This document shows, in pieces, positions 694-21,633 of a stretch of 42,147 bases of DNA (positions within the stretch are counted from its first letter, which is position 1; each line of letters opens with the position of its first letter). A program made the translations under genes and the position numbers. Where the stretch lies: the NCBI GenBank assembly GCA_001918155.1, contig MNFJ01000115.1:1-42147 (forward strand), given 5' to 3'. Source of the DNA: Deltaproteobacteria bacterium 13_1_40CM_4_68_19 (lineage in GTDB: Bacteria; Myxococcota; Myxococcia; Myxococcales; 40CM-4-68-19). The notes under the pieces were generated by a model. The model ran no database searches, was not told the origin of the DNA, and saw only the letters and a list, made by a program, of their open reading frames with translations.

Positions 694-2052
694 CTACTCC
701 AACCCGTATTCGCGGATCTTGTAGAGCAGCGCGCGCGGCGAGAGCTCGAGCAGCTCCGCCGCCTTCGTGCGGTTGCCCTGGGTGCGCTCGAGCGCGCGGC
801 GGATCAGGTCGGCCTCGAGCAGGCGCTGCGCGCGCTTCACGGAGAGATCGTCGGGGTCGAGCTGCGCGGGCAGAGGCTCCGGCTGCACCTGCCCCTGCAA
901 GGCCTCGGGCAGCGACTCGGGTCCGATCTCCTCGTCCTCCGAAAGCACCAGCGCGCGCTCGAGCGCGTTCTCCAGCTCGCGCACGTTCCCCGGCCAGCGG
1001 TAGGTCTTCAGGAATGCGAGTGCGCGCGGCGAAAGGCGGCGCGGCGGCATTCCGAGCCTCTCGCCGTGGCGCGCGAGCAGCCGTTCCGCGAGCGCCGGGA
1101 TCTCCTCCTGCCGCTCGCGCAGCGGCGGCAGGCGCACCTGCACGACATTGAGGCGGTAGTAGAGGTCCTCGCGGAACCTGCCCGCGTGCACTTGCGCCGC
1201 GAGATCGCGATTGGTCGCCGCCAGTACCCGGACGTCGACGCGGGCGGAGCGCGAATCGCCCACCCGGCGCACTTCGCCCTGCTGCAGTACGCGCAGCAGC
1301 GCCGGCTGCACTGCCAGCGGCAACTCGCCGACCTCGTCGAGCAACAGCGTGCCGCCGTCGGCCTCCTCGAAGAGTCCGCGCTTGGCGGTTCGCGCGTCGG
1401 TGAACGCGCCCTTGGTGTGGCCGAACAGCTCGCTCTCGATCAGCGTTTCCGGGATGGCGCCGCAGTTCACCGCCACGAACGGCCGCTCGGCGCGCGAGGA
1501 GAGGTCGTGCAGCGCGCGGGCAACCAGCTCCTTCCCGGTCCCGCTTTCGCCCTCGATGAGGACGGTGGTGGGCGTGGGTGCGACCTTCTGCACCACCCGC
1601 AGCACCTCCTTCATCGCCGGCCCTTCCGCGAGCAGCTGCGGTGCCCGCCGCGACGCCTCTCGCCGCAGGCGCAGGTTCTCGCGGCGCAGCCGCTCGCGTT
1701 CCTCGGCCTTGCGCAGCACCAGCAGGACCTCGTCGGGCCGGAAGGGCTTGCCGAGGTAGTCGTACGCGCCGGCCTTCATCGCCTCGATCGCCAGATCGTG
1801 GGAACCGTACGCGCTCATCACGATGATGGTGGTCTCGGGCGAGGCCGTCTGCGCCGCGCGCACCAGGTCGAGGCCGTTCATCTTCGGCATGCGCACGTCG
1901 GTGACCAGCGCGTCGTAGTCGCGCGCGAAAAGCTCGCGCATCGCGTCCTCGCCGTCGGTCACCGCGCGAACTTCGTAGCCGCGCTCCTCGAGAAGCTCGG
2001 TGAGGACGTGGCGGATCGACTCTTCGTCGTCCGCGATCAGCACCCGGCGCAT
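694..2052 (-). CDS. Sigma-54-dependent NtrC-family response regulator (PilR2-like)
   Basis: [17 protein letters not shown] receiver, AAA+ with GESGTGKE and GAFTDA, C-terminal Fis-type HTH ([28 protein letters not shown]). Position next to XRE-pilM resembles M. xanthus pilR2. Confidence 0.9.
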
Positions 2053-2067
2053 GCATACAGTGTATGC
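2053..2067. promoter_or_regulatory. Inverted repeat GCATACA-g-TGTATGC in divergent intergenic region
   Basis: Perfect 7-bp arms abutting the regulator start codon, between genes at 2052(-) and 2148(+). Confidence 0.4.
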
Positions 2068-2147
2068 GGTTTCGCGAGGCCCGCACGCTTCCGTCCGCGG
2101 ATGTTTCCTTGGCAGGGCCCGCAACTGCGGCAGACAATGACGATCTC

Positions 2148-13650: not shown

Positions 13651-16002
13651 GTGGCCGCGATCGTGATCGCGCGCGAACGACTCCTGCGCCTTGCGCCCAC
13701 CCTCCTCGGCCTCGCGCTGCTGGCGATCTTCTTCGCGCCGACCTTGGACCCGCGGGTGCAGCTCTACTACCGCGATACCGGCAGACTCTATTACCCGGTG
13801 AAGCTCTTCATCGCGGAGCAGCTCCGGGCGGGCCGACTGCCGTTCTGGGACCCGTTGACCGAGTGCGGAGTCTCGCTGCTCGGCCAGGTCACGCCGGCGC
13901 TGCTCCATCCGGCGACGCTCCTCTACCTCGTGTTTCCCTTCGACCTCGCCTTCAAGCTCAACCACATGCTCGGGCCGCTCCTGGCGGGGATCGGCGCCTG
14001 GCGGCTCGCGCGCCGGCTCGGTTCGAGCCCCTGGGCCTCGCTCGCGGGCGCCACGGCGTACGCGGGTTGTGGATACCTGGTCAGCGTGACCGGCTCGAAT
14101 CTGCCCTACGCCATCGGTGCGGGCAGCGTTCCCATCGCCGTCGACGCGGTGCTCCGGGTGGTGGAAGCGCCTTCGATCAAGCGCCTCGCCTGGGCGGGGG
14201 CGGCTTTGGCGTTGATCGCCTATGCGGGAGAGCCGCAGGCGATGCTCATCGCCGGCCTGCTTTCCGGCGCCTGGGCCCTCGGACTCGCCTTCCCGGACTG
14301 GCGCCGCGCCGCGCGCAACCTCGGGCTGGTCGCGAGCTGCGGCGTGCTGGCCGTCGCTTTCTCCGCCCCTGCGGTGTTCACGGCCGTCGTCGAGCTGCGC
14401 CGCAGCACCCGCGCGGACCCGATCACGGAGAAGGAGCGTGCCGTATTCGCGAATCATCCATTCCGGCTGGCGGGCCTTCTCGTTCCGCGCGCGTTCGACG
14501 ACGCGCCGGAGGCGGTCGGGGCGCAGCAGTCGACCGCCTCGCCGTACACGGAGTACTTCACCCAGGGAGATGCCGCCTTCGCCGACTCGATCGTGCTCGG
14601 CGCGCCCGCTCTCCTGCTCGCCGCGGCAGGGGCATCGGTGCGACGAAAGGGCGCCCTTCTTTTCTCGGGCGCGGTCTTGCTCGCGCTCGCATCGACCGGG
14701 CCCGCCCTCGGCATCGATCGGGTCCTTTTCGCACTCGTTCCGCTCGCCAGCATCTTCCGCTTCGCGGAGAAGCTGATCGCGCCCGCGTCGCTGCTGTTCG
14801 CCCTCGCCGCCGCGCTGGGCGCTGACCTGGCGCTGGGGGGCACCCGCCGCGCGGCGGTGCGGCTCGCCGTGGCCGCGCTGCTGGTCGGCGTGGGCGCAGC
14901 GGCGGCAGCGCTATGGATCGGCCGGAGCGCGCCGCACCTCGCGCAGGCCTTGGCGACGCACGGGAAGACGCACGGGCTCGCGTTCGCGACCGCTTTCTGG
15001 CGGGAAGCGCGCGCGGGTCTCTTCGATTGCGCCGGGCTGGCCCTGGTGGTCGCGCTGATCGCGCTCTGGCGCTGGTCGCGGCAGCAGCCGGCCACCCCGC
15101 TGGCGGCGGTGTGCTGCGCCGCTTCGGTTTTTGCTTCCTGCGGAGGTCTTCTCTACAGCGCTCCGCTCGCCGTCGTGCGCGGACCGTTCGACCTGGCGGA
15201 GCGGCTGCGCGCCCGGGCCGGTCCGAGCCGGGATCGCTGGCGGATCTTCGTCAACGACAAGGACCCGCTGCGCCTTTCCGGACTGTCGGCCCGCGCCTCC
15301 GTCACCGTGAGCATGTCGCAGGCCCTGCTGCCGCAGTTCAACTCCGTCGCGGGCATCGAGGGCATGGCCCCGTACTTCACCGCGAGCGATCCGGGATACG
15401 CGCGCGGGATCGTCGCCAGCCCGCGCACGTACTTCAATCTCTTCGGCGTTCGTTTCGTGATCGACATGCCCGGAGCGTTCAGCGCCCGCACGGCGCGCGA
15501 GCGCAACTTCCACAAAGTCGGATTCGGGTACTGGGTCGGCGAGTACGCGCTGCACCCGCGGTCGTTCGTCGTCGCACGCGCCGTGCGCGTCGGGAGCATC
15601 GCCGAGGGTCTGGCGCACGTAGCCGCCCCAGGATTCGACGTACGGCAAGAAGCCGTGATCCGCGGAGATGGTCTTCCAGACATGGTGGAAGGAGCGGCGG
15701 CGCCGGCCGAGTGGGAACGGATCGCGCCGGACCGGATGATGGTGCACGCGCGCGGTCCGGGGATGCTGGTGATCGGCGAGCACTTCGATCCCGGTTGGCG
15801 CGCGACGATCGACGGGCGACGCGCTCCGGTAGCCGAGGTGGATCTCGCGGCGCTCGGCGTCGTCTTGCCGCCCTCGGAAGTGAAGGTGGAGCTGCGGTTC
15901 GTTCCCGCGGGCTTGCTGCCCGGCCTCGCGATCGCGCTCGCCGCCGGCGCTGCGCTGGCCGCGGCGTCCTGGGGTCGCCGCAAGTGGGTCCGGGTGGGCT
16001 GA
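13651..16002 (+). CDS. YfhO-like polytopic membrane protein (putative extracytoplasmic glycosyltransferase)
   Basis: RAGRLPFWDPLTECGVSLLGQ, many TM segments and C-terminal FDPGWRATIDGRRAPV typical of YfhO-family proteins. GTG start 13651. Confidence 0.75.
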   Translation: MAAIVIARERLLRLAPTLLGLALLAIFFAPTLDPRVQLYYRDTGRLYYPVKLFIAEQLRAGRLPFWDPLTECGVSLLGQVTPALLHPATLLYLVFPFDLAFKLNHMLGPLLAGIGAWRLARRLGSSPWASLAGATAYAGCGYLVSVTGSNLPYAIGAGSVPIAVDAVLRVVEAPSIKRLAWAGAALALIAYAGEPQAMLIAGLLSGAWALGLAFPDWRRAARNLGLVASCGVLAVAFSAPAVFTAVVELRRSTRADPITEKERAVFANHPFRLAGLLVPRAFDDAPEAVGAQQSTASPYTEYFTQGDAAFADSIVLGAPALLLAAAGASVRRKGALLFSGAVLLALASTGPALGIDRVLFALVPLASIFRFAEKLIAPASLLFALAAALGADLALGGTRRAAVRLAVAALLVGVGAAAAALWIGRSAPHLAQALATHGKTHGLAFATAFWREARAGLFDCAGLALVVALIALWRWSRQQPATPLAAVCCAASVFASCGGLLYSAPLAVVRGPFDLAERLRARAGPSRDRWRIFVNDKDPLRLSGLSARASVTVSMSQALLPQFNSVAGIEGMAPYFTASDPGYARGIVASPRTYFNLFGVRFVIDMPGAFSARTARERNFHKVGFGYWVGEYALHPRSFVVARAVRVGSIAEGLAHVAAPGFDVRQEAVIRGDGLPDMVEGAAAPAEWERIAPDRMMVHARGPGMLVIGEHFDPGWRATIDGRRAPVAEVDLAALGVVLPPSEVKVELRFVPAGLLPGLAIALAAGAALAAASWGRRKWVRVG

Positions 16003-16034
16003 CAATTCGTGTCAGCGGCGGGACAGATCCTGTC
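16000..16034 (+). promoter_or_regulatory. Candidate PilR enhancer: TGACA-attcg-TGTCA (16000-16014) and GACAG-atc-CTGTC (16022-16034)
   Basis: Two inverted repeats with centres 21 bp apart, each containing (C/G)TGTC, 56-76 bp upstream of the -24 element. Confidence 0.6.
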
Positions 16035-16089
16035 GATGCGCGCGCGCAGCCCGGGGGGAAAGGCGGCGGAAGAAGACGTTTTCTTTGTC

Positions 16090-16105
16090 TGGCCTGCCGC
16101 TTGCT
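16090..16105 (+). promoter_or_regulatory. Sigma-54 promoter of pilA
   Basis: TGGCCTGCCGCTTGCT = TGGC-N7-TTGC with exact -24/-12 spacing, ~38 nt before the pilA ATG. Confidence 0.8.
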
Positions 16106-16142: not shown

Positions 16143-16730
16143 ATGAAGAAGCTCGTGCAGAAGGGCTTTACACTCATCGAGCTGATGATCGTCGTGGCGA
16201 TCATCGGCATTCTCGCGGCGATCGCGATCCCGAACTTCATCAAGTTCCAGGCGCGGTCGAAGCAGAGCGAAGCGAAGGCGAACCTCAAGGCCATCTTCAC
16301 GGCGCAGAAGGCGTTCTACCAGGAGAAGGACCGCTTCTCTACGCTGACCGGTGAAGTGGGCTTCGAGCCTGAGCGCAACAACCGTTATGCGTACTTCCTC
16401 GCCGCCACTGGCACCATCGAGCCCCGCACGGGCGCGACGCTGGTGCAGGCGACGACGTTCACCGGCGTTGCGGTGGATACGTTCAAGTACGGCAGCGCGC
16501 TCGATCAGACGTACGCTGCCACGGCCTGCACCTCGGCCGCCGGGTTGCTAGGCACGCCGGCCACGCGGTTCGACGCGCTGGCGCTCGGCAACATCGACGC
16601 CGACACCACCGTCGACCAGTGGAGCATCTCGAGCGAGTCGCGCACGTTCACGGCGGGCGGCAACTGCACGGCCGACGCGAACAACCCGTCGGGCGAGCCG
16701 GCCAACGACCAGAACGACGTGAACCTGTAA
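16143..16730 (+). CDS. pilA: Type IVa major pilin
   Basis: [65 protein letters not shown]: class III leader, Glu5, M. xanthus-like. SD GGAG at 16133. Confidence 0.96.
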
Positions 16731-18540: not shown

Positions 18541-19959
<1,419 letters not shown>

Positions 19960-19962
19960 GTC

Positions 19963-21633
19963 TCAGCCCACCGCCCCGACTCGATGAAGCGAGGGCGGCG
20001 CGATCGGCAGGGCAACCCGGAAGGTGGTGCCCTTGCCCACCTCGCTGACCACCGAGAGGTGGCCGCTGTGCGCCTCGACGATGCGATGCACGATCGCGAG
20101 CCCGAGGCCGGTGCCGCGCTCCTTGGTGGTGAAGAACGGGTCGAAGATCCGCTCCAGGTCCTCGTCCGCGATCCCGTGCCCGGTGTCGGCGACCTCGAGG
20201 ATGCCCTCTCCCGCCTGGCGCGAGATCCGGACCTCGACGCGGCCTCCCGGCGTGGTCGCGTCGGCTGCGTTCCCGAGCAAGTTCCAGAGCACCTGGCGAA
20301 GCTGCCCGGGATCGGCGCGGACGAAGACGGGCTCTCCTGCGCGCGCCACCAGCTCGATGCCGCGCTCGGCCACCTCCTGGCGGAACAGCTCTACCGTCTC
20401 GGTCACCGCCCGCGACCCGTCCAGGGCCTCGAACGCCGGGGAGATCGGTTTGGCGAACGAGAGGAACTCGCGGACTAGCGTCTCCAGCCGCTCCGCCTCG
20501 CTGCGCACCACGCTCATCAGCCGGCGCTCCTGCTCGTCCAGGCCCGGAGATGCCCCGAGCACCTCGATCGACCCGCACATCGACGCGAGCGGATTGCGGA
20601 TCTCGTGCGCAAGGCCCGCGGCGAGGCCGCCAACCACCGCGAGGCGGTCGGCGCGGCGCACCGCCTCTTCCATCTGGCGTAGATCGGTCAGATCCTGGAA
20701 CAGGATCACCTGCCCGCCAACGCCGCCGGCGAGCGGCGCCGTCGCGTAACCGAGGATCCGCTCCCGGCCGTCGTGGGCCCGCAGACGCACCTCCGGCCTC
20801 GGGCGCTCGCGCGGACGGGCGATGGAGCCCGCGAGCTCGGGCAGCAGCGTGGTCAGCGGCCGTCCACGCGCGATGCGGTCGGGGAGACCGGTCAGGTGCT
20901 CGGCGGCGGGATTCAGGTAGGTGATCCGTCCGTCCTCGCCGAGCGTGATGATGCCGCTGGCGATGGAGCGCACGACCGCGGAGTAGATGGCCTCGAGCGC
21001 TTCCAGCCGCGTCTCGCTGCGCAGCAACTGGCTGCGGGCGCCCTGGAGCTGCTCGGCGAGCAGCGAGGAGAGGCCGCCGACCAGCATGAACGCGGAGAGG
21101 TTCGCGGCCATGACCACCGCGAGCTTTCCGGGCGCCTGCGGAGCGCGTTCGAGGTCGCTGGCGGCGGGCACGATGATCCCGGTCTGCATGCTCCACGCCA
21201 GCACGCAGAAGGCGGTGCAGGATGCCGCTGCTCCCAGCGCTGCGCCGCGGCGGCCGAGGCCGATGGCGCCGCTGACGATGGCGAGCGGATAGAGGATCGT
21301 GAAGATGCTCTCGGCGCCGCCCGTCAGATACACGAGCCCGGTCGCCGCGATCACGTCCGCTGCGATCTGGCCGTGCGCGACCCATCCCAGATGCCGTCCT
21401 GTGCGGAGCAGGAACGTGCCGACCAGCGAGGCGAAGTAGATCAGGGCGATGATGGTGAAGAGAAGCGCCTCGACCGTGCGGGGAAATGGATCGTGGCGGA
21501 GCGTGGACCAGGCAGTGGCCCCGAGGAGCGCAGTCCCCACCGCGAGGCGGACCCCCGTGAGCAGGACCAGCTTGGCGTAGAGCCCCCTCTCAGGGCGCTC
21601 GCCGAGCGGCGAATAGACGCCCGCTTCCGCCAT
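19963..21633 (-). CDS. pilS: Sensor histidine kinase PilS
   Basis: Six N-terminal TM segments, PAS region, H-box GLAHEIRNPLASMCGSIEVLG, ATPase boxes. Confidence 0.92.
   Translation of the reverse strand: MAEAGVYSPLGERPERGLYAKLVLLTGVRLAVGTALLGATAWSTLRHDPFPRTVEALLFTIIALIYFASLVGTFLLRTGRHLGWVAHGQIAADVIAATGLVYLTGGAESIFTILYPLAIVSGAIGLGRRGAALGAAASCTAFCVLAWSMQTGIIVPAASDLERAPQAPGKLAVVMAANLSAFMLVGGLSSLLAEQLQGARSQLLRSETRLEALEAIYSAVVRSIASGIITLGEDGRITYLNPAAEHLTGLPDRIARGRPLTTLLPELAGSIARPRERPRPEVRLRAHDGRERILGYATAPLAGGVGGQVILFQDLTDLRQMEEAVRRADRLAVVGGLAAGLAHEIRNPLASMCGSIEVLGASPGLDEQERRLMSVVRSEAERLETLVREFLSFAKPISPAFEALDGSRAVTETVELFRQEVAERGIELVARAGEPVFVRADPGQLRQVLWNLLGNAADATTPGGRVEVRISRQAGEGILEVADTGHGIADEDLERIFDPFFTTKERGTGLGLAIVHRIVEAHSGHLSVVSEVGKGTTFRVALPIAPPSLHRVGAVG

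Follow-up and report, generated by a model that had tools for sequence, protein, structure and literature searches.

Related Enhancer Systems

Type IV pili drive the social motility of myxobacteria. The kind of control considered here for the major pilin gene pilA, in which an NtrC-family enhancer acts on a sigma-54 promoter, is already known. Ring assembly, DNA looping and activation are established for the NtrC family, and in the NtrC enhancer of glnA, dimer sites are paired roughly 100 bp upstream of the sigma-54 promoter and act by looping. Paired upstream sites are also found at the locus described here; the half-site and the target gene differ. Upstream of pilA in Pseudomonas aeruginosa, PilR sites composed of (C/G)TGTC units were reportedly described by Jin, Ishimoto and Lory in 1994. 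That system resembles the one proposed here in its PilR-family activator, its sigma-54 pilin promoter, its TGTC element and its several sites no farther than about 120 bp upstream, whereas the (C/G)TGTC units differ from the full 13-bp palindrome GACR-N5-YGTC of the present locus.

In Myxococcus xanthus, pilA expression is abolished by deletion of pilR (PMC11841059), and the 186-bp stretch in front of pilA has been named its known promoter region (PMC11841059, PMC6211767). No definition of the M. xanthus PilR operator was found in the open literature searched. NmpR, an NtrC-like regulator of the same species, has paired sites GCGCA-N5-TGCGC upstream of sigma-54 elements, thereby sharing the pairing and the N5 palindrome geometry with the present locus (PMC11841059). 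In NmpR-bound promoters, the 15-bp sites are separated by 5, 14-15 and 24 nt (PMC11841059); computed centre to centre, the distances become about 20, 29-30 and 39 bp, near whole helical turns like the pilA sites. The half-site is GCGCA in NmpR versus TGACR here, and the regulon differs as well. Identity with an NmpR target was rejected, the N5 geometry alone being common to GACA-N5-TGTC and GCGCA-N5-TGCGC. Nla28 is a further NtrC-like activator at the M. xanthus pilA promoter, in which it resembles the role proposed here for PilR (PMC9765219). As far as the open literature searched shows, the Myxococcota operator sequence and the whole-turn spacing rule discussed below are new; no priority is claimed.

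The pilA Promoter Region

The window, i.e., the whole stretch of DNA analysed, comprises 42,147 nucleotides from Deltaproteobacteria bacterium 13_1_40CM_4_68_19 and includes the following features.

694-2124, reverse strand: PilR2-type regulator (Pfam domains), rival and less favoured reader
13651-16002, forward strand: YfhO-family membrane protein gene (PF09586, E=6.8e-12), its stop codon overlapping the distal site
16001-16013, no strand: distal palindrome GACA-ATTCG-TGTC, 89 bp upstream of the -24 element
16022-16034, no strand: proximal palindrome GACA-GATCC-TGTC, 68 bp upstream of the -24 element
16090-16105, forward strand: sigma-54 element TGGCCTG-CCGC-TTGCT (-24/-12), a pattern match kept in place in relatives
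16143-16730, forward strand: pilA, major type IV pilin of 195 aa (Pilin_PilA PF14245, E=2.9e-26; N_methyl)
18541-19959, reverse strand: pilR, sigma-54 response regulator and proposed reader (Pfam: REC, AAA+ with GAFTGA, Fis-type HTH)
19963-21633, reverse strand: pilS, sensor kinase; six-helix membrane domain of the PilS type (6TM_PilS PF25323, E=1.6e-8; PAS, HisKA, HATPase)

Comparison of these sequences with their relatives suggests that the pilA sigma-54 promoter has the two palindromes as its enhancer, or upstream activating sequence, and that PilR binds them, with an estimated probability of about 0.88. Orthologs of both PilS and PilR, the latter with the GAFTGA loop, are encoded in the window. 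The best NCBIfam model for the pilin is typeIV_PilA_Myxo, with a score under the model's cut-off. A second pilA-like gene of the host (G000:C34:8900-10010), cut by the contig end, carries neither a sigma-54 element nor the palindromes.

The paired repeats and the sigma-54 element reported in the original prediction are confirmed. A promoter had been placed at 16090; the full element occupies 16090-16105 (TGGCCTGCCGCTTGCT), is the sole exact match in the window to the pattern TGGCNNGNNNNTTGCW, and is conserved in relatives. On re-reading the sequence, the coordinates of TGACA-ATTCG-TGTCA (16000-16014, centre 16007) and GACAG-ATC-CTGTC (16022-16034, centre 16028) proved right, as did the distance of 21 bp between the repeats (starts 16001 and 16022) and the overlap of the first with the stop codon TGA (16000-16002) of the YfhO-family gene. 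The second repeat is a real inverted repeat, but its description as 5-3-5 is better replaced by GACA-N5-TGTC; because of that description, it had been missed that both repeats share one layout, namely the same 13-bp palindrome. Conserved outer T and A border the distal site. Both repeats had also been said to contain (C/G)TGTC. The C or G is present in three of the four half-sites, but relatives usually have A or T in this position, the core conserved among them being GACR/YGTC with outer T/A; the C or G is therefore not a conserved feature here, and the resemblance to the P. aeruginosa type appears incidental.

When the window was ranked with a matrix trained on families outside the host's own (consensus GTGACGAAATTCGTCAC), the distal site came first (19.9 bits) and the proximal site third (10.9 bits) of 42,131 positions, the distal match being much the stronger. 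Pattern searches of the host genome, whose draft of 3.46 Mb is about 75% complete, found the twin at its fixed 21-bp spacing once with up to 2 mismatches allowed; the next best twin-like places have 3 mismatches.

The overlap with the YfhO stop codon would also suit RNA hairpins terminating transcripts of the upstream gene, and both repeats do fold as hairpins. Their folding is unremarkable for their composition (z=-1.1), however, and across relatives the repeats follow the sigma-54 element and the helical phase, which makes a role in termination highly improbable. An intrinsic terminator, sought as a GC-rich hairpin with a T run, was rejected, as the site has no T run and is not terminator-like.

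Conservation across Myxococcota

The two sites are the only exact copies of GACA-N5-TGTC in the window, against 0.35 expected, and two copies anywhere in it arose in 6 of 100 shuffles, so that the significance obtained from the window alone is modest. The case for the motif is made decisive by its conservation in relatives, from which pilA promoters were gathered and sigma-54 elements picked by score. A perfect GACR-N5-YGTC lies at most 135 bp upstream of the -24 element in 42 of the order's 54 sigma-54-type pilA promoters, compared with 0.74 expected from shuffles, and all 25 genera of the order have the motif with at most one mismatch. Conservation across related pilA promoters had been proposed as a check in the original prediction; phylum-wide, GACR-N5-YGTC is present in 67 of 91 sigma-54-type promoters and in 33 of 46 genera, and in the other classes, outside the order, 12 of 20 promoters contain it. 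The spacer length is specific: lengths of 0-12 other than 5 were found in 0-5 of the 91 promoters each, and permuted half-sites in 0-3, counting only forms that do not overlap the motif. RACG (34) and GRCA (13) are not valid controls, because both overlap the real motif. Since the sites are conserved in relatives and an independently trained matrix ranks them so highly, chance occurrence, for which the shuffled windows are the one argument, is already refuted for practical purposes. Conservation of the sequence, of its position and of the spacer length thus supports the earlier proposal of an enhancer upstream of the pilA sigma-54 promoter.

Exact GACA twins with a gap of 6-11 bp are rare, with four in 145 genomes, three of them at pilA. 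A site followed by a sigma-54 element at the right distance was found at eight places in 13 genomes, five of which are pilA promoters. Many pilA promoters have one strong site and a second that is weak or absent, and some relatives (G005 and others) have degenerate sites only. The fourth base of the half-site covaries with the recognition helix (A in families f1 and f5 with FRQFRHR, mostly G in f6 with FRSLRYR); this was set aside as confounded by phylogeny.

A second perfect GACA-N5-TGTC twin, with a distance of 22 bp, was observed in another genome (L114, 1501-1535; G002:C342:12018-12052), where it and an RlpA-like (DPBB_1) gene overlap at the gene's stop codon. An imperfect sigma-54-like sequence, TGGCGCGAAACTTGAA, lies about 55 bp past the start of the second site, and the product of the downstream gene, an unassigned protein, looks secreted. 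This twin is possibly a second PilR target.

Helical Phasing

Spacings between sites were taken from a perfect site to a second one carrying no more than one mismatch, once per genus. Phylum-wide, they fall at 20-23 bp (12 genera), 29-33 bp (15), 40-42 bp (4), 47 bp (1) and 52 bp (3), with none at 14-19, 24-28 or 34-39 bp; they cluster around 2, 3, 4 and 5 helical turns and rarely lie between. When both sites of a pair are perfect, the cosine computed for 10.5 bp averages 0.80 (p=5e-6); like the other phase statistics, this one is somewhat overstated, because genera or families were treated as independent. The distances from site to -24 element in the order form clusters near 67, 78, 89, 99, 110 and 120 bp, with a best period of 10.5 bp. 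With families collapsed and the distal site only, the order gives p=0.003 at 10.5 bp (0.016 after the period scan). The other classes, a separate sample, give p=0.0045 at 10.5 bp (0.045 after the scan). The two independent samples agree on the 10.5-bp period. The preferred phase is 4.4 bp in the order versus 2.0 bp in the other classes, about 2.4 bp apart, and because the phase differs while the period is alike, no universal phase is claimed. The idea that the two-turn distance sets both dimers on one face of the helix is supported by the whole-turn spacings across the phylum together with the 10.5-bp period between site and promoter.

PilR and Other Candidate Activators

In a tree of 120 regulators with SH-aLRT support, the window PilR (18541-19959) falls into a PilR clade (support 99) together with the regulator directly upstream of Myxococcus-like pilA. 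The regulator at 694-2124 belongs to a separate PilR2 clade (support 100), which includes the Myxococcus regulator located downstream of pilA, presumably the PilR2 position. PilR was present in 16 of 16 genomes checked, and the recognition helix [FLM]R[SQ]xR[YH][RK] of its clade was found in all 16, including those with pilR remote from pilA. Searches of the PDB and of plasmids with PilR returned generic NtrC-family relatives only.

The original prediction left open which of the two regulators binds. A true enhancer could be read by the PilR2-type regulator, or by both: the window also encodes PilR2, an HTH-bearing member of the NtrC family that is conserved throughout the order, and in two genomes of that order (L209 in G054, L210 in G014) a PilR2-clade gene lies divergently just upstream of pilA. 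In these two genomes, which keep the sites, the distance between pilR and pilA exceeds 10 kb. Against PilR2 stands its recognition helix, which is of the RALLYK type and unlike that of PilR. The loop that contacts sigma-54 reads GAFTDA in 29 of the 33 PilR2-type regulators with a readable motif, in place of the GAFTGA or GSFTGA of nearly all PilR proteins. No PilR2 was detectable in G170, G171, G173 and G174 (families f22 and f23), where the best match of the PilR2 query is PilR itself; these genomes retain PilR and the pilA-type promoter motif, which is perfect in G173 and G174 and has one mismatch in G170 and G171. In M. xanthus, moreover, PilS2R2 has been tied to pilus assembly and PilR to pilA expression (PMC11841059). 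A reading by PilR2, with or without PilR, therefore appears unlikely. PilR is the better candidate on orthology, recognition helix and co-occurrence, as it shares a clade with the Myxococcus PilR encoded beside pilA, and as four lineages have PilR and the sites without detectable PilR2.

Another NtrC-like activator, e.g., a regulator of the Nla28 type, might bind the sites instead. The host genome encodes more than 20 sigma-54 activators, and Nla28 has been found to bind a fragment of the M. xanthus pilA promoter (PMC9765219). Its half-sites CT(C/G)CG(C/G)AG, however, are a different sequence, and those listed for pilA, GTGCGCAC-N10-ATGCGTAG, overlie the -24/-12 element, off the palindromes (PMC9765219). 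Compared by eye, they are unlike GACA/TGTC and absent at the window palindromes, and an Nla28 target was rejected there. NmpR does not bind the pilA promoter of M. xanthus (PMC6211767). An activator of this kind is thus a very unlikely reader, and PilR is retained as the predicted one.

The link to M. xanthus comes from one genome (L213 in G126), which carries exactly the sequence published upstream of M. xanthus pilR, TGGCACGTGACGTACG. The sigma-54 element published for M. xanthus, TGGCATG-N4-GTGCT, and the Nla28 half-sites published for it likewise occur in the pilA promoter of this genome, and since all three match, the genome is that of M. xanthus or of a very close relative. The candidate PilR sites in this promoter, GACAGTTATCGTC and GCCGAATTTTGTC, lie at a distance of 22 bp from each other; Myxococcus-like genomes have two sites at -179 and -157 from the ATG.

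Proposed Mechanism and Implications

By analogy with the NtrC family, PilS would set the phosphorylation of PilR, dimers of which would sit on GACA-N5-TGTC through their Fis-type HTH. As the sites are two helical turns apart, the two dimers would lie on one face of the DNA, where they could nucleate an AAA+ ring. Across a short DNA loop, the ring would then meet sigma-54 RNA polymerase at 16090-16105 and spend ATP on opening the promoter, turning pilA on.

For M. xanthus, the motif provides a concrete candidate operator, namely TCGACAGTTATCGTCA and TGCCGAATTTTGTCA at a distance of 22 bp, within a promoter that has two published M. xanthus sequences, and PilR binding, a search for the regulon and helical-phase experiments therefore become directly testable. 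There is about an even chance that the Myxococcota PilR enhancer follows a helical-phase rule, with slides by whole turns (2, 3, 4 or 5) between sites and steps of about 10.5 bp relative to the promoter over 44-120 bp. If this rule is true, the loop through which the activator ring acts would be short, stiff and specific to one face, and promoters would evolve in jumps of whole turns. The whole-turn spacing pattern over the phylum gives a natural record of the ways in which an enhancer may move in evolution.
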